Shown: one piece after another, positions 24,006 through 64,000 of the stretch
How positions within the stretch are numbered: position 1 is the first letter of the stretch
Layout: the number at the start of each line of letters is the position of its first letter
Assembly (NCBI GenBank): GCA_963681505.1
Contig: OY811974.1
Coordinates: 302,189 to 366,188, forward strand
Direction of reading: 5' to 3'
Length of the DNA stretch: 64,000 nucleotides
Source of the DNA: Eunapius fragilis
Lineage: Eukaryota; Porifera; Demospongiae; Spongillida; Spongillidae
Notes under the pieces: model-generated
What the model was told of the DNA's origin: nothing
Database searches by the model: none
Seen by the model: the letters and a program-made list of their open reading frames with translations, nothing else
Program-made: the position numbers and the translations under genes

Positions 24006-24102
24006 GCCCAAGTAAAGGACGGACCATCGGTAAGGTTATGTATCTATCTATGCACAGGGTCCAACCCTTTACCTGTATTGCCATATTACGTGTGCACACA
24101 TC

Positions 24103-26223: not shown

Positions 26224-26308
26224 TAGGTTTCCATGCATTTGTATGTAAATTATACCAGCTTGTGGTACGTGTACTGTGCTAGCGCGTCACAGTATTTTCA
26301 TGTGGCAG

Positions 26309-34057: not shown

Positions 34058-35725
34058 TACCTGATGTGGAGTCTCGTGTGAATGCAATCGGCTGCACTTA
34101 ATTAAGAGATAGGCGTCGCATTAGCTTTAGTGCAGGACTTCCATTAGTTAAGATTACTATTTTAAAAAGTAATAATTTTTTCTGATGAGCAACCCAACTC
34201 CTGCCTGGCCTCTTGTGTGCCAATTCACCACGGTGGTTGCAAGCATTCTATGACTAGGGGTTGACATTGTAGTCTAACTATTCTGATGTCCTTACAAAGC
34301 ATAGGTCATATGATTATTGCTATGGACACCATGTCTCTCATTTTTATCTCAAGTGGAATTAAAATTTCATCGTAATTGCTATGTTTCACTCCAAAGCTTT
34401 TGCAAATAAAGTATATTATTCAAAGCTGATTGCTTCAGGATGCCATGGATTACTTACATGTGTGCTTTCCTGGAGGTACTCCTCCAATTCTAGGCTAATG
34501 TTTACGAGGTTACCATATTCTGTGATGTTTGTTAGGGATGTGCAGCTGCTACCCACATGCAGTTTATGTTATGTTTATAGTCTCTCTACCCACCAGGAGT
34601 TCTAGTCTCAAGCTCATTGTGCAGTTTGCTCCAAGAAAGAGCACACAAATTTTCTTTCTGCCCATCAAAGAGAATAGAACACAGCATTGTTGTTACACGC
34701 GCGCGTCAGTTTTACAGTAGTACTAGTATGAAACATATGCAATTTCCGTTCTGTAATTAATTAAATTCCTGGCTACGATTCCTCGCGACGTTGGATTGAT
34801 ATTATTACATAATCACTGGACAGAATTGAGTACAGCAGTTCACCAGACCCTCTTTCCACGTAGCGGCGATTTGTACGAACACTAGAGCCGTATTCACCAG
34901 AACGCTCTACTTTCCGATTACTATTAAATCCAACTTCAGGCCCCAATTTCAAGGGGCAATCCGAATTTTTACTTTAGAGTTTACTCTTTCAATTTAAGTT
35001 TAAAATTGTAGCGCATATGTAGCCCACATCCGTAAGGACACAGCTCTAAATGTTTATGTGCAGCTAGAGCTCTGCTTATTAGATGGAGGAAGTGACATGT
35101 GTGCTATCACAAAATGCACCACCACTTCCATCCATGCCTTTTATGTAGCATGCCACTCACAACCCCACACACACAAATAATGGTACGGATTCCAGGACCC
35201 GCAGTAACACAGCTCTGTTGAACCCTTACCATCAGCCAGTGACGCCATACTACTGTGAAGAGCCTCCTCCCACAGAATGCCAACGTTCAGTCCAACACCA
35301 ATATCTGGAATAATGGTTATTTCTGCATGCGCTTAATACAGTACACTCTGTTGTTGCTTTTACTAGTGCGTATAATTTCTTCATCATTGCCCAGCCTTAC
35401 ATGCATCAAGACACATTATCTTCTCCATCCTCTTCAGGGTTAAAAATACGTGTGCATGAAAACCTGATCAAATGTCACTCATCAAGTCTACCTCAGTCCA
35501 TGAGATCTAAATAATAGTCCATAACATGTAAAATTGGCACACCATATTATCACATCACAGGTGGAGGTGGGAGGGTGCATGGAGCAGAGTGGAGGGAGAG
35601 TGATATGGGCTGGCATTAAAAAGAAATCAAGGATTGGACACCGAACTGCCCTATGTGGAGGGATGTGTGTCTTAAATCTGGTATCCAACCCCTTTCACTT
35701 TCTGTGAAACCGTCCGTGAGCGTAC

Positions 35726-41400: not shown

Positions 41401-41431
<31 letters not shown>

Positions 41432-43855: not shown

Positions 43856-44215
43856 TCACACACAAAAATGGCATACTCCCAAATTATCGCACCCTAAATA
43901 GATCTTAACATGTTCAGCCAAAGCGCATTCCTCATTAGATTCAAGAACTGTAATTAATGACCTCCAGGAAGCATCCTTTGTCTTCAGCCATTTTTGAAAC
44001 ATCTCTCTGCAACATTCTTCAGGTCTATTGGGAAACTGTCGTCTTATTATCTTCAATGTGCTCCCTTCAGGATCAAAGTTAAATGCCACACAAATCTGTT
44101 CCCACTTTGCAGCAACAACAGCCATGATGTGAACTGATTTTCCACTCATAGAGAAAGTCTGCTGTTCAGCAAGTGTTGGCCTTCGATCAGCTGCAGCTAA
44201 CTGTGATGATATCAT
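43856..44215 (-). CDS. Death-domain-like protein, unit B
   Basis: This copy of the ORF at 12446-12772 has few substitutions in the Death-like region (R to G and A to T). The last codon context is GGTGCGAT instead of GGTGAGAT. That removes the TGA and would also destroy the possible GTGAG donor, so the ORF reads on for 11 more residues to 119. If A is normally spliced there, B would be altered at its C-terminus. Confidence 0.6.
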   Translation of the reverse strand: MISSQLAAADRRPTLAEQQTFSMSGKSVHIMAVVAAKWEQICVAFNFDPEGSTLKIIRRQFPNRPEECCREMFQKWLKTKDASWRSLITVLESNEECALAEHVKIYLGCDNLGVCHFCV

Positions 44216-44217
44216 TC

Positions 44218-44300
44218 CTAACTTTGTGATGTCATCATCCCTAACTTTGTGATGTCATCATTGCTAACTTTGTGATGACATCATCCCTAACTTTGTAACC
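44218..44300 (+). repeat. Short tandem repeat (about 27-bp unit), unit B
   Basis: This is the unit B copy of the TGATGTCATCA repeat upstream of the Death-like ORF, with the same copy number. Confidence 0.7.
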
Positions 44301-45038
44301 GTAACCTGAAACCATCCTTGGCAGCTTTCTGATGATCACCGTGGCCAACACTTGCATAGCTGGAATATTACTATGACAGGCATGGTGATCATTGGAAAAA
44401 GCTGCGATTAGGGTTTCTGCTGACAGTTTTCAGGAGAGCTGAGTCCCTGTTCGAGAAGTGTGTGAATGTATGGTTCTTAGTGCTGCAAGGAGACTGTCTG
44501 GTGACAAAGACTTTAAATATGTGCCCAGCAGTACCCATGATGTGGCAGCTGTGATGTATTACTTATGACATCAGATATCATGTACACATGCATATTATCA
44601 GCAACTTCACTTTGAGGCAATTATTCTTTTCTTTTTAAGATTTTCCCCGCAATCTAACATAGGCCCAGTGTAAAAAAAAAAAGTGCAAAATTGTTCAATG
44701 GTATTGTTGCATAAAAAAGGGGACCTTGCCCCTTTTTCTTTCTCAAGTTTTGAAATTATTGCCAAGCATATCAACCTTGAAGAGTCTGTCAACTTGCCTT
44801 GGCTGTCATATGTTGTAGATGCGGCGTGCATTAAATAAAAATTTAAAGTCATGTGTATTGTAGTGTTTGGGTTAGGGTTGAACGTGATTAGTGGGATGGT
44901 GTTGAGAAGTTTAGAGTTTGGAGGGTTTGAACCCCATGACATACTAAGCCTTCTCCCACATTATATCACACATCACCCCTTCACACATCACCCCTTCACA
45001 CATCACCCCTTGCACACATATCACCCTTTCACCTGCAG

Positions 45039-45147
45039 CAGTGACAGCAGTGTGCCCCAGGGGGAGTACTGTGAAAATGGCATTAAGTATACCTTCAAGG
45101 TGTACCAGAGAATTGTTACCAAAAAGATTGCCAAAAGTACTGAGTGA
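45039..45147 (+). CDS. Possible terminal exon, unknown gene, unit B
   Basis: This is the identical copy of the frame at 13607-13715, again after the CACC minisatellite and CTGCAG. Conservation alone says little, because the whole unit is nearly identical. Confidence 0.3.
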
Positions 45148-45357
45148 CCTTCATTTGCTGAACATTTCTGTCCCGTTGATTTCTTTTAAAAAGTAATGAT
45201 CCTACATTTCCATCCAAATTTTTACTCTCCCTGTTTATCTGTTTATTGGTATACCTGGGGGACATATGCATTTTCAATTACCACAAGCCTTAAATCGTGG
45301 ATAATGAGAAACAGTCGGGAAGACTCATATTTTGCAATTATAACGTAAGGGAGATTT

Positions 45358-45390
<33 letters not shown>

Positions 45391-45739
45391 GGGGGGGGGG
45401 GTTGAGTCTAAAGACCCCCCTTGGGCCCAAGTCATGAATAATTACGTCGCACATTTTTCTTACAAAAATGGAGCGATCAAACGCTACAGTAATAGTGTCG
45501 TTCCATGTGGTGGTTGTTGCCGAATTTACACTTCATGTCACGAGTGGGACTGGGTACAAGACTTCTATGCCAAAATGCAATGGCAGTGGCCTTTTTCTCT
45601 GGAAAAATATCAGGGGCAGACGTGGTGGGCCCACCCCCCCAACGTATACATGGTTGGCGAATTGAACAAAGCAGACGGGAAACCATTGTTACAGGCGATA
45701 AAACTGGTTCCATTGAGTGAGTGCGGATCTCCCACGCTT

Positions 45740-45975
45740 TGCGGTAGGGGGCATACCTGCACTCTTCCCCTATTTATTATTCATGTTGCACCCTCCCCTC
45801 CCCTCCTCCCCCCTTTCCAGAATTCCTGTATAAGGTTGTTGTTTTGGGATGGTATTGATTTTTTAGAGGCTGGGTATCACGGAAGGACATGCCCCTCCCC
45901 TTGAAATTGTTATTATACCCCCCCCCCCCCCCCCCCCCCCCCCCCCTTCCTGAAATCCTGGATTCGCCCCTGTGT
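45740..45975 (-). mobile_element. Degenerate MITE of the CAGGGGCG family, unit B
   Basis: This is the unit B copy of the element at 14285-14515, carrying an expanded C homopolymer at about 45918-45946. Confidence 0.5.
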
Positions 45976-46048
45976 ATAGACTATAACCATGTCTATAATG
46001 AGGCTATTCTCATCCCCTCTGTCGTGTGTGTGTGTGTGTGTGTGTGTG

Positions 46049-46086
<38 letters not shown>

Positions 46087-46525
46087 TGAAACTTGCTGCA
46101 TGCCATGAGAAGAATGACAAGCAAAACATTAGACAGTACACAATTCCTTCCCTCATTCACTGAGATTTCTTGACAGCCAAAAAATCAAACCTGTTAGGTG
46201 TCAGTACTTTGTGCCGTAATTAGAAATAATTAGAAATTTAGCATACACATCCAACTTTGTACAATCTGGTACAGATAAGTCTGTGCGGACGTTCTGTCTC
46301 GTTTACGTATAACAGTTTGTACCATTCTTGCCAATAAGCAACAATTATTTAACAATATGTTGCAAAAAGAAGCTACATTTCGTCTCTGATAGCAATATGT
46401 GCCAATCTGCTAACCAGGCTTGTAACATTCTGGATCATAAATCTATCCACGTACTCCTAGGTACCCTCATCAGACTACGCCCACCTTGCCTGCCATGATT
46501 TAATTGTCACTGTAAGCTTATACAT

Positions 46526-46612
46526 TAGTCTCGTACCCTAGACCCATATTTTCATGTAGCGGTGATGTAATCCATCTGCAGCTGTGAAAAATTGGGTCTG
46601 GGTACGAGACGA
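46526..46612. mobile_element. 87-bp MITE with 9-bp target duplication, unit B
   Basis: This is the unit B copy of the MITE at 15060-15146 with the same CTTATACAT flanks (46517-46525 and 46613-46621). The insertion therefore predates the duplication or haplotype split. Confidence 0.8.
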
Positions 46613-48183
46613 CTTATACATGTAGATGTGTCATCAGGAATGGGGAGTCAAACATATCGCTTTTGCAGAGAAGCTGAACATTGCACAGTTGGGCCTGGAA
46701 CTTGGACAGAACTAGGCTACAATGAGTGTTCAACTGTTAACAACTAGCTCCGAGGTACAGTTCCTTTCCTTTGCTGACGCACAATGCACGAAACATCATG
46801 TGCTGTGATCACATGTCAATATTGGAACTGCAAAATTCAAAATGGTCACGAAGATAACCTACTAGCTGGAACCTCGCAGTCATGCAGTCATTTATCGAGC
46901 ACTTGCATGTCTTTGACGATGATCAACATTGAGAAAGTGGTTGGCATGGTTGTTTAGGGCAGTGTGTATCATATTTATGGTGGCGCTTGTTTGGCTCAGA
47001 CAATTCGCATCAGGCGTCCTATCAAAATGACTGCGCTTTCGAGATGCTGGGTTACGATCCTCTGGCTACTCTATACATGACGCCATCGCATGGTGAAAGT
47101 GCTGACTGCGATTTTTATTTTGAGTAGCTTATGGATGCTACATCAGTCCTCAGCCTGGGGTAAGTGTGCACTATGCAATGCAATTTTCATTATATAATCC
47201 TTCTTTTACCAGGGTCATTGAAACCACTTTCATTTGATGTCAAAACTCCTTGAATTTCAAAAGGAGACTATCAACAATCTACCTGAAAGCAAAGGCAGGA
47301 GGCAAGTCAGTAATTTTTTTATACTGCATAGTAAGTATCACATTCCAACGGATGATTTAAAGCTATTCATCAACCAGGAGCAACCAAGAAGGTATGTATG
47401 TATGTCATGACTCTTGACTACCAGCCCCTTTTGGACTGCCTTGGCTGCTCCAAGCTGCTTCAGACAGCAGTTTCTGCTGGTGCAGTTGTGCACAAATTCC
47501 TGCAGCTTTCAGAGACTAACTGTCGAGAGAACACTATGTAGCAATGTTGTTGACTCTAATGTATTGTTTCAATGTATCTTTACAACAATTAACAAGAATG
47601 GAAAACTGTTTTTGGTACAGTAAACGAAGTAGGGAGTACCATTTTATTTGGTATTGAATTATGTAGTGGTGAGTTATTAAAACTCAACGTTCATTTTAAA
47701 AATTGTAGTGGTCTTTTAGCTTTGAATATTAACCAATAAAATTTCATGCTTTTTCAAGCTTCCATCAAAGTTTATCTGCAGTTTATAAATCTTGCACTTA
47801 TCGTACATTATTGTCTTACAATTGCACTGAGAGACCTTGTTATGGAGAGATGCTGTTGGAGAAGAGACCTAGGATGCTTTGAAGACAATGACTTGTCGTA
47901 GGAGTGCAAACATCCAAGGGTTCTCACAGTAGTGTTGCTACAGCTGTGGTCAGGGATTAGATTGGTGGTTAGGCGAAGCGAGGGGAGCGAGGATACTGGG
48001 CCTAGTAGGAGATCCTGTTCCCGTAGACATCCAGAGTTTAAGACGCTCACCAGCGGTGGCACAAGGACGATAAGTAAAAACTTCGTGATCACCACTTACG
48101 GGCAGAGTTGCTGTGGTGCTGCAGTTTGCTTCCAAATAGAAATGATCTAAACAGCATTCCATAGTCATCTCTTTCTGTTACAT

Positions 48184-48225
<42 letters not shown>

Positions 48226-48423
48226 CTATGTAAGTATACAAGTATGCGTGCATTGGGCCACTTGGGTTATGATCTTCGCAATAGGTGTGCAAATTATATC
48301 ACTTTGCAATCATTTGTAATGACAAAAATTTACACTCATACAGCAGAAAGCTTATATGTAACAGCTTGATATAGTTATGACACAAGCAGATAAGGGTATA
48401 GAGTAAGCTCTCAGTGGCCTTGT

Positions 48424-50616
48424 CTAAGATGTGGGTTTCCTGAAGACACGAGCAGAACAACTAGAGTAGGACACCATTGGACACCACTTTTGTGTGTGGA
48501 TACTGCTCACAATGGCCTCATCAATGGAAAATGGATCCTTTTCTGCTTTCAGCTGCATAGGATTCTCACCCTGGTGTGCCTCCACCAGCACATGCACAAA
48601 CTGATATCTTTCCATGGGGTTATACCCTTCATTTACAGCCTTCCTCAGTTGATCACTGCGATTCTTTCGGAGCTTCTCTGCTGTGAAGCAACTAAGAGCC
48701 TCTTTTGCCTGGAACCCAAACAGGACTGGTTTACCATTTCCTTTTGTGGGTAGGGCCAGCAGCCCATCAAACAAAAGGTTGTATTTGTGCATCCCATCCA
48801 CCGATGAGGACCACCCCTCACTGTATTCTGTGGGGGGTGGAAGAGGGGTGGGGCCCCAGTTATACCACTCATCGTTGTTAATAATTACATTCTGTTTCTG
48901 TTCTTCGGGAAGACACTCAAACTTCTCACGACCTCTGCACGCTGCACGAGGAAATATTGCCACTGGTGGGAGTTCAAAGACTGCGCCCCGAAGCGGTCGA
49001 AGTAGAATGTCCTTACCGATGGTGCACTTGGAACCCAGAAATTTCTCAATTGATATACTCATTCTTTCTGGCATACTTGCTGCTCGACAGCGGTATGCAA
49101 GTAGCATGATCACCTCAAACAACTTTCCACACTCTTCATCACCTGGGGGGGCTGGCAATTCCTGAAGGGCTTGGACAAGCTTTAAAACATCTTTCACAAA
49201 ACAGCACTGCACAGGGTCGTCTGTAACCAATTTCCGAGCAAGTTGTTCAACAGCTTTTGGGCTCATGTATACTCGGTCCACCCCAGCGGTGTGGTCTCGT
49301 AGGATGCAGCACAGTCCAGCTGCATCTGCAAGGAGGGCAGCATGGAATATGTGGCCAAATGCAGTTGTATCCTTATCAAATGGAACAGGCCAAAATAGGG
49401 CCCGTAATAGGTCATAGGGATCCACAGGAGGTTCCTTCAATCGACACGCTTTCAAGAATTCTCCACATTTAGACAAGAAACCAGAGTGGGCAACAAGTGG
49501 CACATCTTTTGTGTCACTTATTTTCTGTGGCTGCTTGGCTTGCATCAATGATGAAAGGACAAGGGAGTAGACACGTGCATTGTACTGCGAGCTCCAAAGA
49601 TGTGTACGTGCAAGGGTGAGTGCTGGACCACAGTATAAGTTCTTCAGCTTCCAATCATCACTCTCCACAGACAGTGGAGGAAGTGGCATATAGTACACAG
49701 GGCGATTTGATCCTACTGCGATGCCCAAGGCAGGGTTGTATGCAGTATAAGCTGATGCACACACGTACAGTGCACCAAGCTTTGAATTACCCTTACGGTC
49801 TACCAGTGATGCTGTTGACAGATCTACTAATGCCTTCAATCCACTCACAGCTTCCTTGGACACCACACCTACCAGTCCTTCCTTCCCCAACTTTGCTAAT
49901 TCATCGGCAGCAATCAGTAGGTTCTCTTCTGGCTTCAGCTCAAGGATGGCACGACATGTCCTCATAACTGTATACGATAAGTCTTGCCGCCGCAGTGATT
50001 TCAACACCGGGAGGAGAGTGGCAGCAAATTCCGGGAGAGATACGGGGCATTCCACACGACGACACACAGCCGAATACAGAATGCGCAAGTGAACACGAAT
50101 TTCAGGAACCTCTGAAGTGTCACAGTCCTGATCAACACTGTTGATTATAGTGTCAGGAGGGATTATTCCATCATTAAATGTGATATGCAGTGTCTTTCCT
50201 CGTGGAACTTGAGGGGAAACATTGGTTTCAAAGTGCTGCATCGCCAGGAGAAGCTGAACAGTTTTCCCACTACCTGCTGTGCCACAGTTGACCGCAATTG
50301 GCAAACGAACATGTCCTTGTTTTAGCGCAATCCAGTTATCTCCCATTGTCAACGAATCCTTCAATGCTCTGTCAAGAACATTGAGAGCTTGTTGACGATG
50401 ATCCAGAGTTGGATACAAATCTGTCCATTCTACATAATCAGAGTTCCATGTTTTGCGGATTCTCTCACTGGGCATGAAGGGTGTGACTGCATCGAGCAGC
50501 TTCTTCGTTTCCTGTTCCATTGACAGGACTGTGCCATCCTCCACTGGTTGGAGATCAACGAATGCACGAGATGAACCTGAGAGATCATCAACATCGGACA
50601 TCAACGTAGTACACAT
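48424..50616 (-). CDS. RHS/Crinkler-type P-loop NTPase with C-terminal nuclease-like region, unit B
   Basis: This is the unit B copy of the gene at 21816-24005, 730 residues and intact. Walker A reads GTAGSGKT, Walker B and the FGFQAKEA segment are unchanged. It differs from A by one inserted codon (LRRQD for LEQD) and a few dozen substitutions, several clustered around residues 380-420. Both copies have stayed open over about 2.2 kb, which argues that selection acts on them or that they are very young. Confidence 0.65.
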   Translation of the reverse strand: MCTTLMSDVDDLSGSSRAFVDLQPVEDGTVLSMEQETKKLLDAVTPFMPSERIRKTWNSDYVEWTDLYPTLDHRQQALNVLDRALKDSLTMGDNWIALKQGHVRLPIAVNCGTAGSGKTVQLLLAMQHFETNVSPQVPRGKTLHITFNDGIIPPDTIINSVDQDCDTSEVPEIRVHLRILYSAVCRRVECPVSLPEFAATLLPVLKSLRRQDLSYTVMRTCRAILELKPEENLLIAADELAKLGKEGLVGVVSKEAVSGLKALVDLSTASLVDRKGNSKLGALYVCASAYTAYNPALGIAVGSNRPVYYMPLPPLSVESDDWKLKNLYCGPALTLARTHLWSSQYNARVYSLVLSSLMQAKQPQKISDTKDVPLVAHSGFLSKCGEFLKACRLKEPPVDPYDLLRALFWPVPFDKDTTAFGHIFHAALLADAAGLCCILRDHTAGVDRVYMSPKAVEQLARKLVTDDPVQCCFVKDVLKLVQALQELPAPPGDEECGKLFEVIMLLAYRCRAASMPERMSISIEKFLGSKCTIGKDILLRPLRGAVFELPPVAIFPRAACRGREKFECLPEEQKQNVIINNDEWYNWGPTPLPPPTEYSEGWSSSVDGMHKYNLLFDGLLALPTKGNGKPVLFGFQAKEALSCFTAEKLRKNRSDQLRKAVNEGYNPMERYQFVHVLVEAHQGENPMQLKAEKDPFSIDEAIVSSIHTQKWCPMVSYSSCSARVFRKPTS

Positions 50617-50713
50617 GCCCCAGTAAAGGACGGACCATCGGTAAGGTTATGTATCTATCTATGCACAGGGTCCAACCCTTTACCTGTATTGCCATATTAC
50701 GTGTGCACACATC

Positions 50714-51148
50714 TCATGCGCTATACACACACATGGTTCTGGACAGTACGATATTATCCCTCGCAACCTGCTCACACCATTCAACCCAACACTCACCCTC
50801 GGTAGCTTTAAGTACAGGACTACTCGTTCCCAGGGACGCCTGGGGAGGAGACGGCTTGTGAATGCTGCTGCCCCCAGCCCTCGACGGCTTCATCAGCCCG
50901 GCCTGTTCACTCGAGGTCGGCGCCACACCTAGAGGACTGGCGAATGATTCGCTGCCGTTTCCTTCTCCCCCCGAGGATATCACGCGAGGTTTTTTAGCAG
51001 CTGGCGCCATATCTGGTTCGGGTCTAGAGCCGCTTGAACCCTGTTTCAGCGTGGTCGACTTTGAGTGGTTCTGTCGCGGTGTCTTCCTCATGGCTGTCAC
51101 TCTCGGCAAGGTAGTTCGTAGTGTGGTCCCTAAAAGTCTGAAGTACAT
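50714..51148 (-). CDS. Disordered ORF upstream of the NTPase gene, unit B
   Basis: This is the copy of the ORF at 24103-24540 with 144 residues. A one-codon difference near RQDEHSK/RQNHSK keeps the frame, and the KKPR motif is kept. Confidence 0.4.
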   Translation of the reverse strand: MYFRLLGTTLRTTLPRVTAMRKTPRQNHSKSTTLKQGSSGSRPEPDMAPAAKKPRVISSGGEGNGSESFASPLGVAPTSSEQAGLMKPSRAGGSSIHKPSPPQASLGTSSPVLKATEGECWVEWCEQVARDNIVLSRTMCVYSA

Positions 51149-51324
51149 AGTCTTATGGGAACCCCAATAGACGCGCAGTGCTTATATTACCGCACGGCTG
51201 TTTAATAATTGCATTGAAATTTGAACAACAGGTCCGCGCCCACTATGAATTTTAAGTACCTAGCAACATGGCTCATTACTTCCATAGCAACGACAAGAGG
51301 TTTATGTACATGAAGATATCGTCG

Positions 51325-52037: not shown

Positions 52038-52077
52038 ACCGTGTGGAAGTTAGCCCCACATTCCTCAGCACCACATT
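52038..52077 (+). repeat. Left 40-bp inverted repeat of the large element
   Basis: It begins ACCGTGTGGAAGTTAGC and contains CACATTCCTCAGCACCACAT. It matches the reverse complement of 63927-63966 at 37 of 40 positions. Confidence 0.75.
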
Positions 52078-52204
52078 TAAGCATGAATAAGTTTAACATT
52101 CCTCAAGCGGCGGGCGTCCGAAACGAGCGCTTCTTAATATAGATCACGTTATGAACGTAAGCAAACACTATGCAACGTGTTATATGAAGATGCTGTGAGC
52201 TAGT

Positions 52205-53275
52205 ACTGTTGCCACAGGGTAGATGTGTACCTGTGCCAACCATGGACTCAAGGTCACGTGCCGATCCTGAACACTGGACTAGCTTGGATCCTGAACACTG
52301 GACCAGCTGGGGTTACAAGCTGTTCCATGTACCCACAGGGTAGGTGAGTACCTAAGCCAACCAGGGACCCAACGTCACGCGCAGATTCCGAACACTGGGG
52401 TGTGTGACCACAACTAATAAGTTCTTTCAAGCTGACCTGTGGAGACGGGTGCCATTCTTGTGAGTTGCAAAGCACACTGAATCTGACTCTGAGGTGTTTC
52501 ATGTACCCACAGGGTAGGTGTGTACCTGTGCCAACCAGGAACCCAACGTCACGCGCGGATTTTGAACACTGGGGTTGTGACCACAACTAATATGTTCTTT
52601 CAAGCTGACCTGTGGAGATGGGTACCATTCTTGTGAGTTGCAAAGCACACTGAATCTGACTCTGAGGTGTTTCATGTACCTACAGGGTAGTTGTGTCCCT
52701 GTGCCAACCAGGGACCCAACGTCACGAGCGGATTTTGAACACTGGGGGAGTGACCACAACTAATAAGTTCTTTCAAGCTAACCTGTGGAGATGGGTGCCA
52801 TTCTTGTGAGTTGCAAAGCACACTGAATCTGACTCTGAGGTGTTTCATGTACACACAGGGTAGGTGTGTACCTGTGCCAACCAGGAACCCAACGTCACGC
52901 GCGGATTTTGAACACTGGGGGTGTGACCACAACTAATAAGTTCTTTCAAGCTGACCTGTGGAGATGGGTGCCATTCTTGTGAGTTGCAAAGCACACTGAA
53001 TCTGACTCTGAGGTGTTTCATGTACCCACAGGGTAGGTGTGTACCTGTGCCAACCAGGAACCCAACGTCACGCGCGGATTTTGAACACTGGGGGTGTGAC
53101 CACAACTAATAAGTTCTTTCAAGCTGACCTGTAGAGATGGGTGCCATTCTTGTGAGTTGCAAAGCACACTGAATCTGACTCTGAGGTGTTTCATGTACCC
53201 ACGGGGTAGGTGTGTACCTGTGCCAACCAGGAACCCAACGTCACGCACGGATCCGGAACACTGGACCAGTTGAGG
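52205..53275 (+). repeat. Left subterminal array of 173-bp tandem units
   Basis: Units start at about 52327, 52500, 52673, 52846, 53019 and 53192 with exactly 173-base spacing, plus a partial, more diverged unit at 52205-52320. Each contains CACAGGGTAGGTGTGTACCTGTG, where CACAGG and CCTGTG form a small inverted repeat, CCAACGTCACGCGCGGAT, and TAATAAGTTCTTTCAAGCT. Open frames across them are by-products of the period. The units may bind the transposase. Confidence 0.9.
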
Positions 53276-53774
53276 GTGTGACAACAACTGCTCAGTTGAA
53301 CAGCTCATCATATAATACGACCTCCTGTCATGGACCTGCTCAACTTATCTTTTTTGTTATGTTTCTGGTTTCCAAACTGCCTTTTTTAGTGTGAATAATA
53401 TTTTTCGTTACGTTGGTTGATCCAGGGGACGTTTGTGTGACCTGATATGAATGTTGTTGTGTGTGAGTGTGTATGGGTGTGAGACTGCGTGATTATATTA
53501 TGGCATATGTAATGTTACATACATCTGAGGTGTGGCTTAAACTGATAGTTCTACTTTGTGACCTTATTTGGATGCATGAAAAATGAGCTGTGCTATTGTT
53601 AATGTAAGCAAAGCTTTGAGGAGTGGTCTTCCCATCCACTGTGTACATTTTCCCTCCATGCTATATCCCAGGATATGAAAACTATGGTGGGTGGAGCCTG
53701 TGTTTGGTCCTATATAAATGCATAGACTTCTACATAGTCCCATTGCGTTTGTGCTTTTTGCAAGTTACTTTGTG
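53276..53774. promoter_or_regulatory. Upstream region of the transposon gene
   Basis: These 500 bases hold no open frame of note. TATATAAATG at 53711-53720, about 60 bases before the proposed ATG at 53775, is a TATA-like word. It is preceded by CCCAGGATATGAAAAC and GGTGGGTGGAGCC. The role as a promoter is inferred from position only. Confidence 0.35.
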
Positions 53775-56700
53775 ATGGTAAGTTAACTTCAGCTTAAGTT
53801 TTGTTATTTTATTACTTTCATAGCCACCTATTAGACGAAAGCATAATTTTGAACCTGGTGCTCTTGTAAAGTACATTGCTGACACAGGGGAGACACCTCC
53901 AAAAGATGCATCATGCAATGGACCAAGTGGTTACTGGTACTTAGCTGCACAAGTTTTGTCTGGAAAATCAAATCCATCCTTCAAGTTTGTGGCAGCAGTT
54001 GCTTCATACTGGTACCACAAACGATCTGATTTATGTGTGCAAAAACAAATTGGTACAAGCCATCCCTGTCAGGTATATAAATTTACTTTTACAGTGTTAA
54101 TGTATTAATGATGTTACAAAATTACTGATGAAAAACATGCAAAGCTATAATGTGGGTGTGTACACATATGTTGTAATGAATATACATGTAGACCTGCACT
54201 AGAGACCAAGCAGGAAAACCAGTTCTGGTTACAGATGGAAAAGGGGCTGATCATGTACAAGAAGAGACCAGTAGTCATATGGATGAAGAGATTAACGAGA
54301 GTAAGGAGGAAGGAGCTAATGATGTAGAGACTGTGGATGAAGGACGAAGTGATGGTGTGGACCAAGGATCTAGTAATGGTATGGACCAAGGACCTAGTGA
54401 TGGTGTGGACCAAGGACCTAGTGATGGTGTGGACCAAGGACCTAGTGATGGTGTGGACCAAGGACCTAGTGATGGTGTGGACCAAGGACCTAGTGATGGT
54501 GTGGACCAAGGACCTAGTGATGGTGTGGACCAAGGGCCTAGTGATGGTGTGGATCAAGGACCTAGTGATGGTGAGGACCAAGACAATGATGAACCTCATC
54601 CTGACCATATTGAGGACAACGACGATCATGAAGAGAATGCTGCTAACATCTACTGCGTGTGTGAAACACACTATGATCCTTCAAGGTTCGTTTTTGTTAT
54701 TGTAATGAATACTATATAGTTTTCATTACACTTGCACTGAATGATTAGATTTATGATTGCTTGTGATTATTGTGGAGGCTGGTATCACGGAGATTGTGTT
54801 GGAGTTACTGAAGACACAGCTTCTCACATAGAGACTTATAAATGTCCTGCATGTACGGCTGCTGGTGTTCTGAGACCCTTCTATACAGATGGTTAGCACA
54901 GATATGAAGCATGATAGATAGATATACATGAATTTGTTTCTTACAGGGGCAATACAAATTCAAGACACACATCTTGATCTCATTCCGGTATATATGTAAT
55001 GTATTGTAATGTAATGTAATCTATATGTATGTAATGTAATCTATGTATGTATGTATGTATGTATGTATGTATGTATGTATGTATGTATGTATGTATGTAT
55101 GTATGTATGTATGTATGTATGTATGCATGCATGCATGCATGCATGCATGCATGCATGCATGTATGTATGTATGTATGTATGTATGTATGTATGTATGTAT
55201 GTATGTATGTATGTATGTATGTATGTATGTATGTATGTATGTATGTATGTATGTATGTATGTATGTATGTATGTATGTATGTATGTATGTATGTATGTAT
55301 GTATGTATGTATGTATGTATGTATGTATGTATGTATGTATGTATGTATGTATGTATGTATGTATGTATGTATGTATGTATGTATGTATGTATGTATGTAT
55401 GTATGTATGTATGTATGTATGTATGTATGTATGTATGTATGTATGTATGTATGTATGTATGTATGTATGTATGTATGTATGTATGTATGTATGTATGTAT
55501 GTATGTATGTATGTATGTATGTATGTATGTATGTATGTATGTATGTATGTATGTATGTATGTATGGATGGATGCATGCATGCATGCATGCATGCATGCAT
55601 GCATGCAGTGAAACACATCCTTGTTTAAGATAAATGAATGTAGGTAATTAATAACTACAGGTTGATCCAGCTATCTCAAGAACGACTGCAGGCTGTCTTG
55701 CTCGATCTTCACATTTGCCTAATAGTAGCTCATTTACTAAAATCAGTCTACAAGCAGGGTCCTTTAAAATTTCAAAATTGCAATGGGATGACACATTTGT
55801 CGGTGACAGTATAAAGCCATCATGGGTACATACCCTAGCTGATGGATTATTGCAACTGAACAAGTGCTGTTCATTTGCTTTCAAAAAGCACTGGAGAAAG
55901 AAATCAAATTCTCGCAAACAGTCGCTTGCAATTTTCAGGGCAACTGCATATTGCACATTTTCTACCTGTAATGTGATTGCTATACTTTCAGTCTCTAGTG
56001 AGGAAATCAATCCTGATAATGTGACAGTACGTGTAGTATTTTCGGGAAATGTAGATCATCAGGTTGGTGAAACCCATGCTCGTCATTTCAGCAGTACCAA
56101 TAGAAGCAAACTTCACCAGTGGTTTCAGAATACACAAGTCGCTCCATCTAAACAGTACCTGAGCCGATTGATGAACCTAGAAACTGAGCAATATGCAGCA
56201 GGAAATAGAGATGGTGTGGGATGTTCGAAAGCAGTAATTAGAAAAATTTCATCAGAGACCAGATTGCTGCAGCAAGATGATCGAGACTTCATCACATCCC
56301 TTATGATTTTACAACGCAAATTAATCAATGAAGATACTGTGAGCTCTTCTAAATTTGGACTTCATCGCCCTGACTCACCAATTCCAGGTTATATTCAGTA
56401 CATACAAGCTTCTCCATTTGGAGTTATATGTTTCAATGAAACTGGTGTGAGACTCTACCATGAAGTTGCAAAATACTCTCCAGTTTTCTGTGATGCCACA
56501 GGTACAATAGTTACTGTTCCAAAGGATGTGGGCACAAAGCCTTCTGTGCGCTACTACTACAGTCTTGTAGTTAAGCATCCTGTTAGTGGCAAACCTCCTA
56601 TTCCAGTTGCAGAATATATATCTTGTGACCAAACAGTACTGGCAGTCAGTTCTTTCTTACAAAGTTTTAGACGGGCCGAAAGCTTATTGTTTGGCTCTGG

Positions 56701-59700
56701 TGCATCCATAAAACCCATAAGGGTCATAATTGATCGCAGCATTGTGCTACTTATCAGCTTTTTACATGTTTTTAACATGGAGACAGTTAATGATTACCTG
56801 TTACGAACATTTAGAATTGTTAGTGGTGCAGGACAACGTAAGGATTTTGAAAAGATACTACCTCATGCCTGTACAAGTCACGTGATGAATTCGGCTAAAA
56901 AGGATTGCAAGAAATGGTAGGTTTAATGAATAATGTTTAAAAGCGTAATAATATTCACACTTATATGGAAGAGGTGTCTATGTCATGTCATTAATAATCA
57001 CATTGCATCTATCATCATTTACTCAGGTTTAAGAATGAAGAATACTCTTTTTCCATGTTTTGCTTTTCAATTCTTGTTAACTCTACTACTTTAAAAGATT
57101 TGGTGATGCGACTTGGTCTGCTAAAATGTCTTTACTACTCAAAGAAGGTGTCCATCAATATGAAATCTGCATATAATAGAATTGTTGATATTATTAATGA
57201 TCTCAATAAGAAGCCACTTTTCCCTGATATTGTGAATGATGATACACTCAGTGAATCAAATGAAGACTCGGAGCAGTTTAATAGTTTTTCTCATGATGAA
57301 ATGTCACTTAAGTTGCAACCATTTAGCATGTACTTCAATAGAAAAATGGAGGAAGTACATGTACATGATGATGATGATGATAATGGAGAGAAGGAGAATA
57401 GGAACTATAATCCTGACTATTTTAATGAACTTTTAACGAAGTGGCTTCCAATGGCACCATTCTGGACATGTATGTTGCTTGGTAAGTGTTTAAAGTTTAC
57501 AATGTAACCCACTTGTTAACTTTGCACATAAATAGGAAACCTTGATAGACACAAGGTGGAGAAACCATTGCCAATTACAACTATTGTAAGCTTTTATACA
57601 AGAATGCATTGTCTGCTGTTAATTGCCCTATTTAGCATACAGAGTTAAGCAGAACTGCTGGGACTATAGAAGCATGGAATTTTATTCTAAAGAAGATTGA
57701 CCATCCTCAGAAGCATTTAAGACCAGATGTTTTTTTGAGACAGCATTATCCCATCATCATTGCAAGACAGAGGCAGTTTTATGATGATATGCAGGATAAG
57801 CTACGAAAGCATGTAAAGGTATTGTGTGTTTTGACATTAATGACAGTTAAATGAGTTTATCACATTTTTAGTTATCTCTTAAGACCAAACCTTCTCGCCC
57901 TTTGAAAGAGAAGTGGTCTAAACGGCCATTGAAGACATCAAGAATTCATGGCCATTTCCAAAAGCCGTCAAAACCACTCACCCATATGTAAGCAAATGTA
58001 GTTTCTGTTGGACATTTGTCACATCTACATTGCAGATGTCACACTGTAGAAAATGATACCCTAACAGCAGAGTTAAACACCACGAGTCTGACAGCTAAAA
58101 ACGACCCCCCAACTAAAGAACTATGCAATGCAAGTGCAACACTAGAAAACATCACTACAGCTCCAGATCAACCAAATGAGTATGTGTGAACATTGTTAAA
58201 TTCTATTCATTTTTTATCATTATAAGCAGCAAAGAAATTGCTATGAACAAGACCAAAGAAGATGCCGATTTTCAGCATGTGTAAGCTGAAACAGACAATT
58301 GATGTAGTGACATACATCTTTGCATTACATGCATCAGAGTTGAAATTTCTTCCACCATGGAAAAGAAAACTGCTCATCAAACACAGTATGTTATAGGATA
58401 AGGTTTGATTGAAAAAGTAGCTATGCTATGCTATGCCATACTAATTGATGTATTTCTTTTCAAAACCGTTGGGCAAATTGTATTCATGTAGATAATTAAA
58501 TTGGTGTCTAGTTAGAAATAATACTACAGCTCTTTCATCATTACTCCACCTACAGATTTGCTGAAGACCAAGAGATTATGGTCGGTTTAATTTGAAAGTT
58601 TGCAGTGTTATTATGTATGTTATTCTGCACCCCTAGCCCCTTTGCATAGAATTGGACATTTCCAGAAGAGTGAACAAGGAACTGCATAATACAACATATA
58701 CGTGTTGGATGAATGCTGCATTACAGGCTCTTGCTGCAACTCCATTGTATTTGATGATGAAGGTTAAGCCACCCATTTAAAACGAGATTCTGCTCCCTCT
58801 TACAAATAATCACATGGCATGCATGTAGCAATGGATGTGCAGTGCTTCAATTCTGTTCAGAAGGAATTTGTGAGTGTTATGGATGAACTTGAAACAAGTT
58901 CAGTTCACCCTTGCAATGCCTCAAAATTAGTTGTAAGTAAAATGAATTTTGTAGTGAATGATACTTTAGTAGCCAAATATAGCGTGCACTACAAAAGGAG
59001 AAAGCATACTCCCTCAACTGTGGATTGCAAAATGACTGTGTCGATGGAATAACAGCACTGCTTGAAGTACTGTTATCAGGATCAGAGGTATTTCATTACA
59101 ATACATCCTTGTAAAGCATTAGTTTAAGATTAGTATTATGTCAGATAGCAAACAACTTTAAGAAAGAATTCACAACAACAGTCAACAAAATGGCTACATG
59201 CTGTTCACAGGTGAAAAACCCTGTGTTTTATATATCATTTATAATACATTATAAACCAGATAGTGCATGATTCTTCAAGTTGGACTGTGATTCCATTCAG
59301 CGCTGAAGGTCAACCAGAGGATATTAGTATGATGGATATACTGACCACCTGGCTTGATGCTTTGTTGGAGAATTTGTGTACCCAAAAGTAGGTCTACAGG
59401 AATATGACTATGAATGCTGATATGTTTATCATATCATGTGCAGGTTTTGTGATGTCTGTCACAAGCAATTAGCTGTTCAGGAGAAACACGTTTCATTTCC
59501 AAGCATATTGATTTTGAACTGCAGTAGGGTAAGTTGCAGTGTTCCAGCCAGAAAACTGAAAAACAGAATTAAAGTTCCAAGGTTTAATAATTGTTTTATG
59601 TGTGCTGTATTTAATAAATGATACACTATCCAGGGCTTGCAATCTTGCACACTCAAGTTCCCAAGAGAGCCATTTCTATCAGTTATGTGCAATCCTGGTT

Positions 59701-62242
59701 AGTAAAAATCAGCAAGTAGTTTGTTATTCCCCTTCATATCCACACATACAGGTGCACCATGGAAAAGACATTGCAGAGGGCCACTGTAAATGAATAAGAA
59801 TATCTTTCATTTAATTTCATCCCATTGAATCAATTTTACAGATACATGCTACGTGAAAAACAGAAAGGAGTGGATTCACTATGATGATTCATTGATATGT
59901 ATAAAAACTACTACTGATTTTCATTCCTCAAGAATAGTTGAGGTTGTAGTGTTAAAATCATAACAGTCTTACAATGTAGCCTTTACATTTTTAGGAGAAT
60001 GTATGTCTTGCAGTTTACACCACATCAATGTCAAAGGTAAGGGGGAAATGTGCAAGCAACACAAGATAGTAATAATACTTCTGCAGACATTTCTTCATAG
60101 AGAGTTTACTATTCATCCTCCAAATGGAAAACTTGTGAGTTAGAATGCATGCATGCATTGAACATGAATATCCTTGAATGCCTAAACCAGATTTACAGCG
60201 GCCTACCATCAAGTATTGAAGCTGAGGTACTTAGGAAAATGCTTTTCAGATTTACATGCACCACGACTGTTTTCAAAAAGTTATACAACAAAGTTCCAGT
60301 ACCAAACAAAGTGTTCCAACTTGAAAAGAATGCCTTACAACAACTACTGTTTGACGATCAACTTGACTCAAAGGTATGGTATTAACCTCATCAGAAAAAT
60401 TCTATGAAAACCCATGTAGATCATTTCTGCATACATGGAACTATTGCAAGAGGCTGCTACTAAGGTTTGCTTAATCATATTATTAAAGTTACATCTTATC
60501 ATTCTTACAACAGAATGGGAAAAGAATTAAGGTCTTTGACCCAACATTTATTCCCCTGTTCAAAGCGCGAGGCTACCTATCAGTCAGAAGGCACTCAAAA
60601 GTGAATCACATGCATGAAACTACAATATGGCTTATGAGAATGCATTTTTGACTCTAGGGTGAGGATGTATGCAGCTACCAGAAACTGTTCTTTCCTGTAC
60701 ACAAACCAAATCATTGGAGTCTACTGGTAAACTTCAGTTTGTACCAGAGTTCAAAAGGTGATAAAACCTGATGATAAAATACTAGGTAGTCCATCCACAA
60801 GCTCAATTCATTCAAAGCTTTGATTCAATGCACTGTTCTGATGATGATGCTGTAAACTGGATTTGGTAAGCTAGTGGCACAAAATTCTTAATGTACAAGT
60901 CAGTAAAACATTTCTATGCTATATAGGCTGTACCTTTGCAATGAAATGCAACATAGAACGAAGTTACACCTCAGTCATTTAGACTGGAAGTATTCTGATT
61001 CAATAGTATTCAGTGCCTTGCATGGAGTTGTAATGTACTCTAATAAGGGATTTTCCAATGATGTAGGCCAGCAATTCACCAAGGCAAACCAATTCATATG
61101 ACTGTGGAGTTTGTGTGTGTCTTGTAAGTTTTGATTTCAACACTCTATGAAAGCATTCTTAACCATGCATAATATTATACAGGCAGCAAGATTGCAAGTG
61201 GAAAGCCAGGACTGCGTATTCACACAAGTAGGATATAAAACACTAAGCACTAGGCATAATAGAAGCTTATCCACAGAAAATGATGAGTTGCTTCAGAAAA
61301 CAGATTGCATTTGAATTGTCCGTTGGTGCACTTTATCCACTGCAGAAAGCAGATGATGATGCACTTCAAGGTGAAACACACCCAGTTGTGTCGTGTAAAT
61401 ACATGTGTATAGTTGTAAACTTTTTCAGGAGTGACTGAATGTCATAGTGTGAATGAAGTAGATGGTGATGACGATGATGACGACATCGAAATTGGAAGCC
61501 CTATATCTTTGAATTCTGATATTCATTCTGATGACTTTTTGGTTCCTGACTTCGAAAATCCTGGTCCTGACCCTGATGACCTTACTGCCCTGAAGTGGGG
61601 ACGAGACCACTATATCAGAAGTTTCCCACATCATCTTCTGAAGAGGAAAGAAAGGTAATGAGAAAATGTGTGCAATTGTTTCTTAGCTTTAGCTCCAATA
61701 CTCATCACAAATGAAGTGAATCACCATTTACAAGAAGATCAATACGACAAGTGGTGAAGAAGATGGAGGTACTTAGAGCATGCATGCATGCATGCTTAGA
61801 TCCATGTAAATATACTTTTCTTTCACTTTACAGCCACTAATACGATGCTTTATAACTGGTAGACAGATGTCAATGTTTAAAAATCACATCCCATATATCA
61901 AAACGTTAAGAAAAGAAAATCCATATTGGCCTCTAGAAACATGCAGTGATATGGTGAGTTAAATTAAAGTTTAATACTATATATGTACTACTCACTGACA
62001 CATACTATACTAGGTACATGAGATTGAGCTGTACCTTATGGGCATTCAGGATGATGTGGGTAAGAATGCATCCATGACACTTTCTGAAGTCAATAAATTT
62101 ATCGTATGGCCTGAAGTAAGTAATACTAATCAATTTTGGCTTAAAAAATTTTTTCCTGTTCACTTAATAGATAATCACTGGTGTCATTATGGAAGCTTAT
62201 AGATTGACCTGGGATGAAGCAAAAACATGCGTTTTGAACTAA
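53775..62242 (+). CDS. PHD finger - DDE transposase-like - USP - Ulp1 fusion protein
   Basis: Exons by hand: 53775-53777, 53824-54072, 54192-54685, 54749-54891, 54947-54987, 55661-56916, 57027-57481, 57536-57585, 57636-57818, 57872-57987, 58036-58179, 58227-58280, 58338-58385, 58556-58580, 58637-58762, 58843-58932, 58983-59087, 59145-59210, 59260-59387, 59444-59581, 59634-59697, 59752-59785, 59842-59942, 60014-60036, 60101-60134, 60191-60373, 60420-60464, 60514-60600, 60658-60726, 60786-60865, 60927-61005, 61067-61123, 61183-61227, 61277-61370, 61429-61654, 61735-61768, 61834-61953, 62014-62115, 62171-62242. Phases agree throughout, giving about 1,820 residues. The weakest join is 59942/60014: reading on gives TAA at 59961-59963 and a 1,377-residue product ending after the USP, with Ulp1 then a second gene. 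The initiator ATG is followed at once by a GTAAG donor. Confidence 0.65.
54192..54590 (+). repeat. Coding 24-bp tandem repeat (GPSDGVDQ)
   Basis: From about 54346 to 54580, ten near-identical 24-base units encode GPSDGVDQ inside exon 3, making an acidic, flexible linker before the PHD finger. Flanking sequence is also acidic (DNDEPHPDHIEDNDD). The nucleotide identity between units suggests recent expansion. Confidence 0.9.
54645..54860 (+). other. PHD finger of the fusion gene
   Basis: Joined across the intron 54686-54748, residues about 237-285 read IYCVC, then CDYCGGWYHGDCVGV, then YKCPAC. This is the complete Cys4-His-Cys3 zinc ligand set. The WYHGDCVGV segment is typical of PHD fingers that bind the histone H3 tail, so it may direct the protein to a chromatin state (known for the family, not shown here). 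Confidence 0.9.
55034..55606 (+). repeat. (ATGT)n/(ATGC)n tetranucleotide microsatellite in an intron
   Basis: About 570 bases of almost pure TATG repeat, with CATG blocks at about 55125-55160 and 55570-55606. It occupies most of the intron 54988-55660 between the PHD and transposase-like parts. All six frames are open, which explains the long repetitive ORFs here. The alternating purine-pyrimidine pattern could favour Z-DNA or slipped structures. Confidence 0.95.
55661..57818 (+). other. DDE (RNase H-like) transposase core of the fusion gene
   Basis: The long exon carries VFCDATGTIV (Asp at about residue 588) and IRVIIDRSIVLL (Asp about 668). Then come LPHACTSHVMNSAKKD, a His/Cys motif after the second Asp, and an all-helical stretch, and finally TELSRTAGTIEAWNFILKK (Glu about 900 or 909). 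D...D...E order with an insert before Glu matches Mutator-like and KDZ-type transposases. I cannot assign the superfamily. Just before the Glu there is an acidic linker (DDDDDNGEKEN). Confidence 0.6.
58637..59942 (+). other. Ubiquitin-specific protease (C19) domain of the fusion gene
   Basis: The Cys box reads NTTYTCWMNAALQAL (Cys about residue 1110). CGLQNDCVDGITALLEVLL follows where QQDAxE usually sits, then a CxxC-type segment (FCDVCHKQL) with FPSILILN, then FYQLCAIL joined to VHHGKDIAEGHY (His about 1337) and WIHYDDSL (Asp about 1353). All three catalytic residues are present, so deubiquitinase activity is plausible. The domain is short (about 270 residues). Confidence 0.8.
60191..61370 (+). 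other. Ulp1/SENP (C48) SUMO-protease domain of the fusion gene
   Basis: IISAYMELLQ matches the start of Ulp1-type domains. Catalytic residues appear in order: NHWSLL (His about 1514), SFDS (Asp about 1531), and PRQTNSYDCGVCVCL (Gln about 1578 and Cys about 1584), followed by AARLQ and RKQIAFEL as in other members. The last two motifs only appear when exon 61067-61123 is joined from the GATGTAG acceptor. The family removes SUMO from proteins. Ulp1 domains are known passengers of several plant and animal DNA transposons. Confidence 0.8.
61429..62242 (+). other. C-terminal tail of the fusion gene
   Basis: An acidic stretch (GDDDDDDIE) and ALKWGRDHYIRSFP lead into a basic segment (RSIRQVVKKME). 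A unique tail follows (CFITGRQMSMFKNHIPYI, LETCSDM, MTLSEVNKFIVWPE) that ends at TAA 62240-62242. No known domain was recognised. Confidence 0.5.
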
Positions 62243-62340
62243 AAACTACCTATGCAGATTTAAGAGCATTACTGTTTTGTGAATAAGTGAAATGCTTAGA
62301 AAAAAGATGCACACAGGCAGAACATTGCTTGAAGTGAAGA

Positions 62341-63650
62341 CACTCTAAAACTCCCTTTAACCTCTAAGACTTGTGACATAACCATGGTCCTCAAGGGGGA
62401 GGGGCCATTTTAATGACACATGTTCTGAAATGTGAGACAGACCTCATCAGATGCTCTGGTGGTGCAGGATCACCAGAACATCGCTTACCTTGGTCAGACA
62501 GTGGGGTAAACTCACTCTCACATGTGTGACATGGCCATGGTTCTCAAGGGGGAGGGGCCATTTTAATGACTTATGTTCTGAAATGTGAGACAGACCTCAT
62601 CAGATGCTCTGGTGGTGCAGGATCACCAGAACATCGCTTACCTTGGTCAGACAGTGGGGTAAACTCCCTCTCACATGTGTGACATGGCCGTGGTTCTCAA
62701 GGGGGAGGGGCCATTTTAATGACACATGTTCAGAAATGTGAGACAGACCTCATCAGATGCTCTGGTGGTGCAGGATCACCAGAACATCGCTTACCTTGGT
62801 CAGACAGTGGGGTAAACTCTCTCTCACATGTGTGACATGGCCATGGTTCTCAAGGGGGAGGGGCCATTTTAATCACACATGTTCTGAAATGTGAGACAGA
62901 CCTCATCAGATGCTCTGGTGGTGCAGGATCACCAGAACATCGCTTACCTTGATCAGACAGTGGGGTAAACTCACTCTCACATGTGTGACATGGCCATGGT
63001 TCTCAAGGGGGAGGGGCCATTTTAATGACACATGTTCAGAAATGTGAGACAGACCTCATCAGATGCTCTGGTGGTGCAGGATCACCAGAACATCGCTTAC
63101 CTTGGTCAGACAGTGGGGTAAACTCTCTCTCACATGTGTGACATGGCCGTGGTTCTCAAGGGGGAGGGGCCATTTTAATGACACATGTTCAGAAATGTGA
63201 GACAGACCTCATCAGATGCTCTGGTGGTGCAGGATCACCAGAACATTGCTTACCTTGGTCAGACAGTAGGGCAAACTCACTTTCACATGTGTGACATGGC
63301 CATGGTTCTCAAGGGGGAGGGGCCATTTTAATGACACATGTTCAGAAATGTGAGACAGACCTCATCAGATGCTCTGGTGGTGCAGGATCACCAGAACATC
63401 GCTTACCTTGGTCAGACAGTGGGGTAAACTCACTCTCACATGTGTGACATGGCCATGGTTCTCAAGGGGGAGGGGCCATTTTAATGACACATGCTCAGAA
63501 ATGTGAGACAGGCCTCATCAGATGCTCTGGTGGTGCAGGATCACCAGAACATCCCTTACCTTAGTGGGGTAAACTCACTCTCACATGTGTGACATGGCCA
63601 TGGTTCTCAAGGGGGAGGGGCCATTTTAATGATACGTGAGACAGACCTCA
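62341..63650 (+). repeat. Right subterminal array of 153-bp tandem units
   Basis: ACATGGCCATGG-type unit starts lie at 62376, 62529, 62682, 62835, 62988, 63141, 63294, 63447 and 63592. The spacing is exactly 153 bases except the last, which lost 8. Each unit has TCTGGTG and CACCAGA separated by nine bases (a hairpin), CTCAAGGGGGAGGGGCCATT and TCACATGTGTGACATGG. It shows no similarity to the left array. Confidence 0.95.
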
Positions 63651-64000
63651 TCAGATGGTCGGGTTCACCTGTACAATAAAAAGTCTCATTTCTGTGCAAC
63701 TTGGTAGGGTTAGCCAGGCGCCTTGGACACAAAAAGTACCGTGATTCCAGTCCATATGTGGAAGCCCGGCTCATATTACAGGCCGTGTCGTGAACTGGTA
63801 AGTAGGCTGTTTTCCTTCTGCGCAAGCTAGCTAGCTACATGTACCTGAACGTTCTGGCCGCGATTAATGTTGGCCGCATTAATGATTATCGTCAGGCCGC
63901 ATCTTAATCACATTACAAATTAATTGGAATGTGGTGCTGAGGAATGTGGTGCTAACTTCCAAGCGGTGTACTGATGGAGGGAGGGAGGAGTGGAGGATAA
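63651..64000. other. End of window, no gene
   Basis: It holds the right inverted repeat of the large element and, before it at 63855-63910, three GGCCGC words each near a TTAAT word. No coding potential was seen. Confidence 0.5.
63927..63966 (-). repeat. Right 40-bp inverted repeat of the large element
   Basis: On the minus strand it begins ACCGCTTGGAAGTTAGC. It contains the motif AATGTGGTGCT twice on the plus strand. Confidence 0.75.

Follow-up and report, generated by a model that had tools for sequence, protein, structure and literature searches.

The domains Ulp1, OTU, USP and PHD are known from unrelated transposases, singly or as the pair of Ulp1 and PHD. That Ulp1 travels on DNA transposons was stated in a first-pass annotation of the locus reported here. 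Ulp1 has been described on Mutators, Ginger1 and plant MULEs, and its Mutator/MULE carriers include KAONASHI/VANDAL in plants and the Mutators of hydra and lancelet; the available excerpts of these sources mention no USP on the Ulp1-bearing MULEs (PMC13317346, PMC2528002, PMC2836005). Ulp1 is described as reversed in orientation on Arabidopsis KI-MULEs, which are elements without terminal inverted repeats (TIRs), and as present in both orientations on melon and rice MULEs, in melon also on elements with TIRs (PMC13317346, PMC2528002). Ginger1 proteins can carry a C-terminal Ulp1 or OTU domain, and Ginger1-9_HM combines Ulp1 with PHD; their transposase is of the Gypsy-integrase type, however, and the table in the accessible text gives one protease domain per protein and no USP (PMC2836005). 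A USP-type domain on a transposase is described for the Trichomonas protein XP_001314237.1 (transposase_11 with Peptidase C19), which by its description belongs to another transposase class and for which the excerpt mentions neither PHD nor Ulp1 (PMC2836005). In RAG1-RAG2/Transib, as outlined in the available text, a recombinase has a PHD-bearing partner and RAG1 carries a ubiquitin-related RING domain, but the PHD sits on a separate protein and the enzyme is a ubiquitin ligase rather than a protease (PMC4411706).

Rehavkus, an outgroup or relative of MULEs, has been reported from arthropods and annelids (PMC6446971). Its description, as far as the available text goes, includes a 9-bp target-site duplication (TSD), TIRs of 26-400 bp, an adjoining minisatellite, one ORF and a PHD in the transposase (PMC6446971), and Rehavkus-1_TC is a 9.5-kb element with a 164-bp repeat unit in its inverted termini (PMC10218199). 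The proposal that ubiquitin and SUMO play a part in transposition dates from 2010 (PMC2836005), and we found no decisive test of it in the literature searched.

Here we describe an element in a 64,000-nucleotide stretch of the genome of the sponge Eunapius fragilis (contig OY811974.1, positions 302,189 to 366,188; hereafter the window) whose single gene joins a PHD finger, a transposase core, a predicted USP deubiquitinase and a predicted Ulp1 SUMO protease. Among the publications listed by the literature searches we found no transposase with both USP and Ulp1, and none with PHD, USP and Ulp1 all together. The first-pass annotation had called this architecture unfamiliar, which holds for the two proteases on one transposase, but the locus is less isolated than that judgement implied, given Ulp1 with PHD on Ginger1, Ulp1 on Mutators and C19 in Trichomonas in the excerpts of PMC2836005.

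Results

A spliced four-module gene within a transposon

The features of the window copy, numbered from the first letter of the window, are as follows.

52038..63967, + strand: whole transposon, 11,930 bp, delimited by inverted repeats at both ends and by homology limits shared with other copies
52038..52077, + strand: left TIR, starting ACCGTGTGGAAGTTAGCCCC, 40 bp, 92.5% identical to the right end
52321..53264, + strand: 173-bp tandem repeat array, 5.5 copies, inside the element; unit number differs between element copies
53711..53719, + strand: TATA-like word about 60 bp upstream of the start codon, a word match only
53775..62242, + strand: single gene, 38 exons, frame of 1,821 aa, against 1,825 aa in the element copies c2 and c3
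53775..54072, + strand: conserved N-terminal region encoded by exons 1-2, 74% identical in family L027
54332..54582, + strand: 24-bp coding minisatellite (GVDQGPSD), changing in length between copies by multiples of 24 nt
54654..54854, + strand: PHD finger, Cys4-His-Cys3, exons 3-4, with an intron at 54686-54748
55745..56065, + strand: WRKY-like zinc/DNA-binding fold, exon 6
56459..57818, + strand: putative RNase H-like core of the transposase with its C-terminal part, spanning exons 6-9; Asp residues at 56492 and 56732, C(2)H at 56870/56879 and Glu at 57669
58666..60036, + strand: predicted USP deubiquitinase, exons 14-23, Cys/His/Asp triad kept
58763..58842, + strand: intron 14, inside the USP, non-GT in the window copy at the donor used by six other copies
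60191..61370, + strand: predicted Ulp1/SENP-type SUMO protease, exons 25-33, His-Asp-Gln-Cys kept
61429..62242, + strand: conserved C-terminal domain of undefined fold, exons 34-38, 39-44% identity in three families and present in Ephydatia muelleri P0042
62372..63632, + strand: 153-bp tandem repeat array, 8.3 copies, inside the element
63928..63967, - strand: right TIR, starting ACCGCTTGGAAGTTAGCACC, paired with the left TIR

The first-pass annotation had read one frame through PHD, DDE, USP and Ulp1 over 53775-62242, with the key residues of each intact. The frame and all of these residues (PHD Cys4-His-Cys3, D/D/E, USP Cys-His-Asp, Ulp1 His-Asp-Gln-Cys) are present; the exon number of 39 becomes 38 by splicing. 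Profile searches of the spliced protein, which it had proposed, recovered PHD, UCH and C48 and left the MULE profile PF10551 unmatched. The closest relatives of the PHD finger are BPTF, PHF2, CXXC1, PHF8 and JHDM1D/KDM7A, and in alignment to PHF2 it keeps Tyr, Tyr, Met and Trp, which we take to be the aromatic cage positions of PHF2. PHD fingers of the BPTF/PHF2 type bind H3K4me3, and with its Cys4-His-Cys3 ligands and PHF2/BPTF-type sequence with aromatic cage the sponge finger may be such a reader. The USP matches Pfam UCH at E 3.6e-24, its nearest relatives being USP36/46 (best PDB match USP36, E 3e-8), and the Ulp1 matches C48 at E 2.6e-16, nearest to SENP2/SENP1 (best PDB match SENP2, E 1.6e-19). 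The transposase part of the window protein has no Pfam match; over 32 aligned sequences one of its Asp residues is invariant and the other is kept in at least 90%, and the third catalytic acid (Glu, 57669) was assigned from conservation alone. The 3' end of the gene is unplaced, since AATAAA is absent within 460 bp past the stop codon (to 62700).

The coding minisatellite lies in an acidic stretch upstream of the PHD finger, and in six other copies exon 3 differs in length by -24, +72 or +216 nt, always keeping the frame. A very long ATGT microsatellite (54988-55605), with matches in other copies too, makes up most of intron 5.

Ends and target-site duplications

The left homology limit at 52038 is seen in copy c4, the sole other copy with a left end in the compared stretch. 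The right limit at 63967 is shared by four copies (c2, c3, c5 and c6), and the alignment of c7 extends 17 bases further. Across the genome the TIR pattern occurs at 77 forward and 73 reverse sites, and its reversed control at 0 and 0. Among 20 related elements bounded by TIRs, whose TSD pairs were picked by hand from 100 of the 150 TIR matches, 14 have an exact 9-bp TSD, two have one mismatch, one (c5) has an exact 8-bp duplication and three have none. The TSD of copy c8, which carries 153-bp arrays at both ends in mutually inverted orientation, is CTATTACCA.

Four of these 20 are short elements of 1.2-1.5 kb with the same TIRs, too small for the gene, and three of the four show an exact 9-bp duplication (C6:2685325-2686732, C10:2945655-2947175 and C3:7595536-7596918, of 1.4-1.5 kb). 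The same ends and exact TSDs in elements that lack the gene indicate that mobilisation of the ends probably also occurs in trans, and that the short elements are probably non-autonomous and moved in this way.

The window copy itself has no TSD at its flanks (52038 and 63967). Neither its flanks nor those of the intact copy c2 (C3:2292725-2311829) match, although both are nearly identical to copies whose duplications are perfect; copies may have recombined with one another.

Near-identical copies, some with intact frames

When the genome (219 Mb, 24 contigs) was searched with exon 6, 104 matches were obtained: eight copies at 96-100% identity, including that of the window, and many at 50-63%. 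The window copy, c2, c3, c5, c6 and c7 are 99.5-99.8% identical, and c8 is 98.5-98.8% identical (over 6.2-6.7 kb). Intact copies exist: in c2 and c3 the frame is open for 1,825 aa. Under the same 38-exon model, c5 has a stop at residue 1186, c6 at residue 199 and c7 at residue 531; c8 is frame-shifted or mis-spliced, and five exons of c4 can be traced. The frame of the window copy is open and finishes 7 codons early. The GT donor of intron 14, present in six other aligned copies, is missing there, with an in-frame cryptic site on offer, so that its USP product may be slightly altered.

Linkage of the modules across loci

Merging the 104 matches gave 64 loci, of which 61 were retained after removal of the three with the weakest matches (best E above 1e-20). 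Modules were counted on the same strand within 6 kb upstream for PHD and within 0.5-8 kb (USP) or 1-12 kb (Ulp1) downstream. At 33 loci the transposase spans 1 kb or more (two of these spans assembled from fragments); 31 of these loci have the PHD upstream, 27 have the USP and 26 the Ulp1 downstream, and 26 have all modules, in the same order and on the same strand. Over all 61 loci the counts are 48 for PHD, 39 for USP, 40 for Ulp1 and 32 for all four modules. The places counted were copied by hand, about one per locus; those of USP (49) and Ulp1 (64) include every locus found, and for PHD 51 were kept from 101 matches, comprising the stronger ones and two weak ones chosen for their nearness to transposases. 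Removing these two gives 46/61 for PHD and 31/61 for all four, and leaves the counts over 33 loci unchanged. The weak PHD matches left out are likely host PHD genes, and some of the misses probably reflect limited sensitivity.

The strips around the 61 loci cover about 0.25% of both strands. Of the places counted, 47 of the 51 for PHD, 39 of the 49 for USP and 41 of the 64 for Ulp1 are near a transposase; the others may be solo fragments or host genes. At five sites (C2:15573220, C8:5163238, C18:3744461, C2:16610363 and C3:10570958) USP and Ulp1 pieces lie close to each other without a nearby transposase match, the second-last and last falling between paired TIR matches. These sites may be copies that have suffered deletion or diverged strongly, or derivatives reduced to the proteases.

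Conservation in diverged families and in Ephydatia muelleri

The c3 protein was aligned with splicing to three diverged loci, L025, L026 and L027, and the domain order in all three is that of c3. Compared with c3, the PHD is 54-58% identical, the transposase core 55-61%, the USP 39-45% and the Ulp1 39-46%. The linker between transposase and USP is the least conserved part, at 25-27%, its frame being open in the three families. Pfam searches of the three loci gave UCH at 2.4e-30, 3.3e-28 and 3.7e-26, C48 at 9.3e-19, 7.1e-16 and 8.5e-19, and PHD in each. Introns with identical position and phase number 24/35, 25/33 and 22/39, against 0.26 expected.

None of the three families has lost the PHD ligands, the D/D/E acids, C(2)H, the USP Cys/His/Asp or the Ulp1 His/Asp/Cys. 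Two of them retain the Ulp1 Gln, which in L026 falls in a poorly aligned exon, and L026 also lacks the USP Asn five residues upstream of the Cys, presumably the oxyanion residue, which the other two families keep. All cage residues of the PHD are kept in L025 and L026; in L027 the first cage Tyr is His. Codon positions 1 and 2 exceed position 3 in conservation, with identities between L025 and L026 of.53/.67/.34 in the USP,.61/.69/.40 in the Ulp1 and.32/.44/.30 in the linker at positions 1/2/3; third positions stand at 0.34-0.42 in USP and Ulp1. The pattern is that of catalytic residues kept under purifying selection. The lesions are one stop in L025, one shift and one stop in L026, and one stop and two shifts in L027; a problem near residue 1405 common to all three may be an intron missed by the aligner.

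Protein searches with exon 6 found 41 relatives, including P0013 of the freshwater sponge Ephydatia muelleri, and those with the region from USP to C-terminus found five proteins. All NCBI relatives that carry an organism name (P0013, P0044 and P0045) are from E. muelleri. Em0003g991a (P0042; 833 aa, in a cluster of 27), assigned to this species by its id and by the sequence it has in common with P0045, combines UCH and C48 in a single annotated model and aligns at 39% from just upstream of the USP to the C-terminus. P0045 holds the C-terminal part of the transposase, the linker (including the first 28 residues of P0042), part of the Ulp1 and the C-terminus, lacks the USP and ends in about 300 unrelated residues. 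P0013 joins the transposase to fragments of the USP and of the C-terminus and has no Ulp1. These are published gene models rather than transcripts; as sequences they strongly favour a fusion of USP with Ulp1 and moderately favour its fusion to the transposase. The first-pass annotation had proposed looking for the same domain order in related genomes: it recurs in 26/33 long genomic copies, and its USP-Ulp1 half in P0042, but among 3413 candidates no annotated protein has all four modules at E <= 0.001.

Discussion

The closest described group is Rehavkus/MULE, to which we liken the element by the features described for that group. A 9-bp TSD, TIRs of about 40 bp, 173- and 153-bp repeat units near the ends and a PHD in the transposase all recall the available description of Rehavkus (PMC6446971), although the single ORF of Rehavkus corresponds here to one spliced frame known from genomic sequence, and the excerpts on Rehavkus mention neither the USP nor the Ulp1 that this 38-exon gene contains (PMC6446971, PMC10218199). 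An Ulp1 on a MULE-type element and the 9-bp duplication would also fit MULEs as these are described in the accessible text (PMC13317346, PMC2528002, PMC2836005), the sponge Ulp1 being in frame with the transposase, unlike the reversed Ulp1 reported for Arabidopsis KI-MULEs. The D/D/E acids and C(2)H motif of the putative sponge core may correspond to the IS256-like RNase H core of MULEs. At E <= 1, PF10551 matches none of the 32 sequences in the transposase alignment, its 45 matches in the genome overlap none of these transposase loci, and profile comparison of the transposase was likewise negative. We therefore call the element Rehavkus/MULE-like rather than a proven member. Membership in Ginger1 was rejected, as no integrase Pfam family is among the matches of the window protein or of the transposase alignment. 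The E. muelleri relatives would extend the host range of Rehavkus beyond arthropods and annelids.

The reading that we favour, at roughly even confidence, is that of a multi-family, recently active cut-and-paste transposon of this Rehavkus/MULE-like kind, with one polypeptide (transposase, H3K4me3-reader-type PHD, USP and Ulp1) that targets active chromatin and breaks a relay of SUMO followed by ubiquitin. That the locus is a transposon, as first annotated, is borne out by TIRs, 9-bp duplications, near-identical copies, one conserved exon order across diverged families and catalytic residues kept under purifying selection. We infer the steps of the mechanism: the WRKY-like domain would bind the element ends, the DDE core would cut and paste with a 9-bp stagger, and the PHD with its PHF2-like cage would anchor the complex at active promoters, on chromatin marked by H3K4me3. 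So tethered, USP and Ulp1 could strip both modifiers, ubiquitin and SUMO, from the transposase complex itself and from chromatin proteins close by, and the element might thereby escape degradation or silencing. SUMO-targeted ubiquitin ligases require prior attachment of SUMO before they add ubiquitin, and SUMO-dependent transcriptional silencing acts on transposons in animals; carrying both proteases would fit a defence against these. The earlier proposal that the element edits both modifiers on its own complex, or on repair or silencing factors of the host, is consistent with active sites under purifying selection. A further-reaching version, in which a single transposase is both chromatin reader and dual ubiquitin/SUMO eraser, a self-contained counter-silencing recombinase acting on its own complex and locus and maintained across a sponge transposon radiation, is put forward only tentatively.

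Through an alternative promoter, splicing or start, the gene might instead yield more than one product, with a USP-Ulp1 protease made apart from a PHD-transposase and acting in trans. P0042 begins at a Met inside the linker, which makes two products possible; P0045 contains that Met too, following transposase sequence, at least one Met occurs in the poorly conserved linker of each family, and in plant MULEs Ulp1 can be a separate gene, according to the available text (PMC2528002, PMC13317346). Yet the P0042 Met has no positional counterpart in c3, where Met occurs at 1043 and 1062, or in L025-L027, the linker frame is open in three families with most introns shared, and P0013 and P0045 splice across. 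AATAAA is also missing between transposase and USP, a weak point, as there is none past the stop codon either and ATTAAA occurs in intron 13. On balance we regard separate products as possible but unlikely. A similarly doubtful, marginally less probable reading keeps one polypeptide and has the proteases act mainly on host DNA-repair or checkpoint proteins at excision and insertion sites, in preference to the complex or to silencing. Such a target was proposed for the Ulp1/OTU Ginger transposases, and the accessible text describes repair as regulated by ubiquitin and SUMO (PMC2836005), but the sponge sequence contains nothing that singles out repair factors.

It is very improbable that the proteases are captured passengers with no part in transposition. 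MULEs are described as often capturing gene fragments (PMC2528002, available excerpt); here, however, active-site residues and frame are largely kept at 39-46% identity with a third-position bias, the modules are associated in 26/33 long copies and the USP-Ulp1 fusion is found in E. muelleri too. The short exons and the lack of a Pfam match for the transposase might make one think of a chance open frame, or of unrelated neighbouring genes fused by hand splicing, but the same order at dozens of loci, the identical intron positions and the E. muelleri proteins leave this hardly credible.

The favoured one-polypeptide reading places two proteases and a histone reader on one protein, whose active sites have for the most part survived deep divergence and which has young copies, two of them with intact frames. 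The role of ubiquitin and SUMO in transposition thus becomes testable by point mutants in one gene. The element may represent a transposon counter-defence against two modifiers at once, in a sponge.

Additional observations in the window

The window contains direct segmental duplications that are 97.1-98.3% identical (32-8710 vs 26224-34870; 9951-16135 vs 41405-47619; 21018-24710 vs 47620-51324), the third pair stopping about 700 bases upstream of the transposon. Within a duplicated segment, 48424-50646 on the - strand holds an unbroken 740-aa frame with a P-loop-like GTAGSGKT motif.
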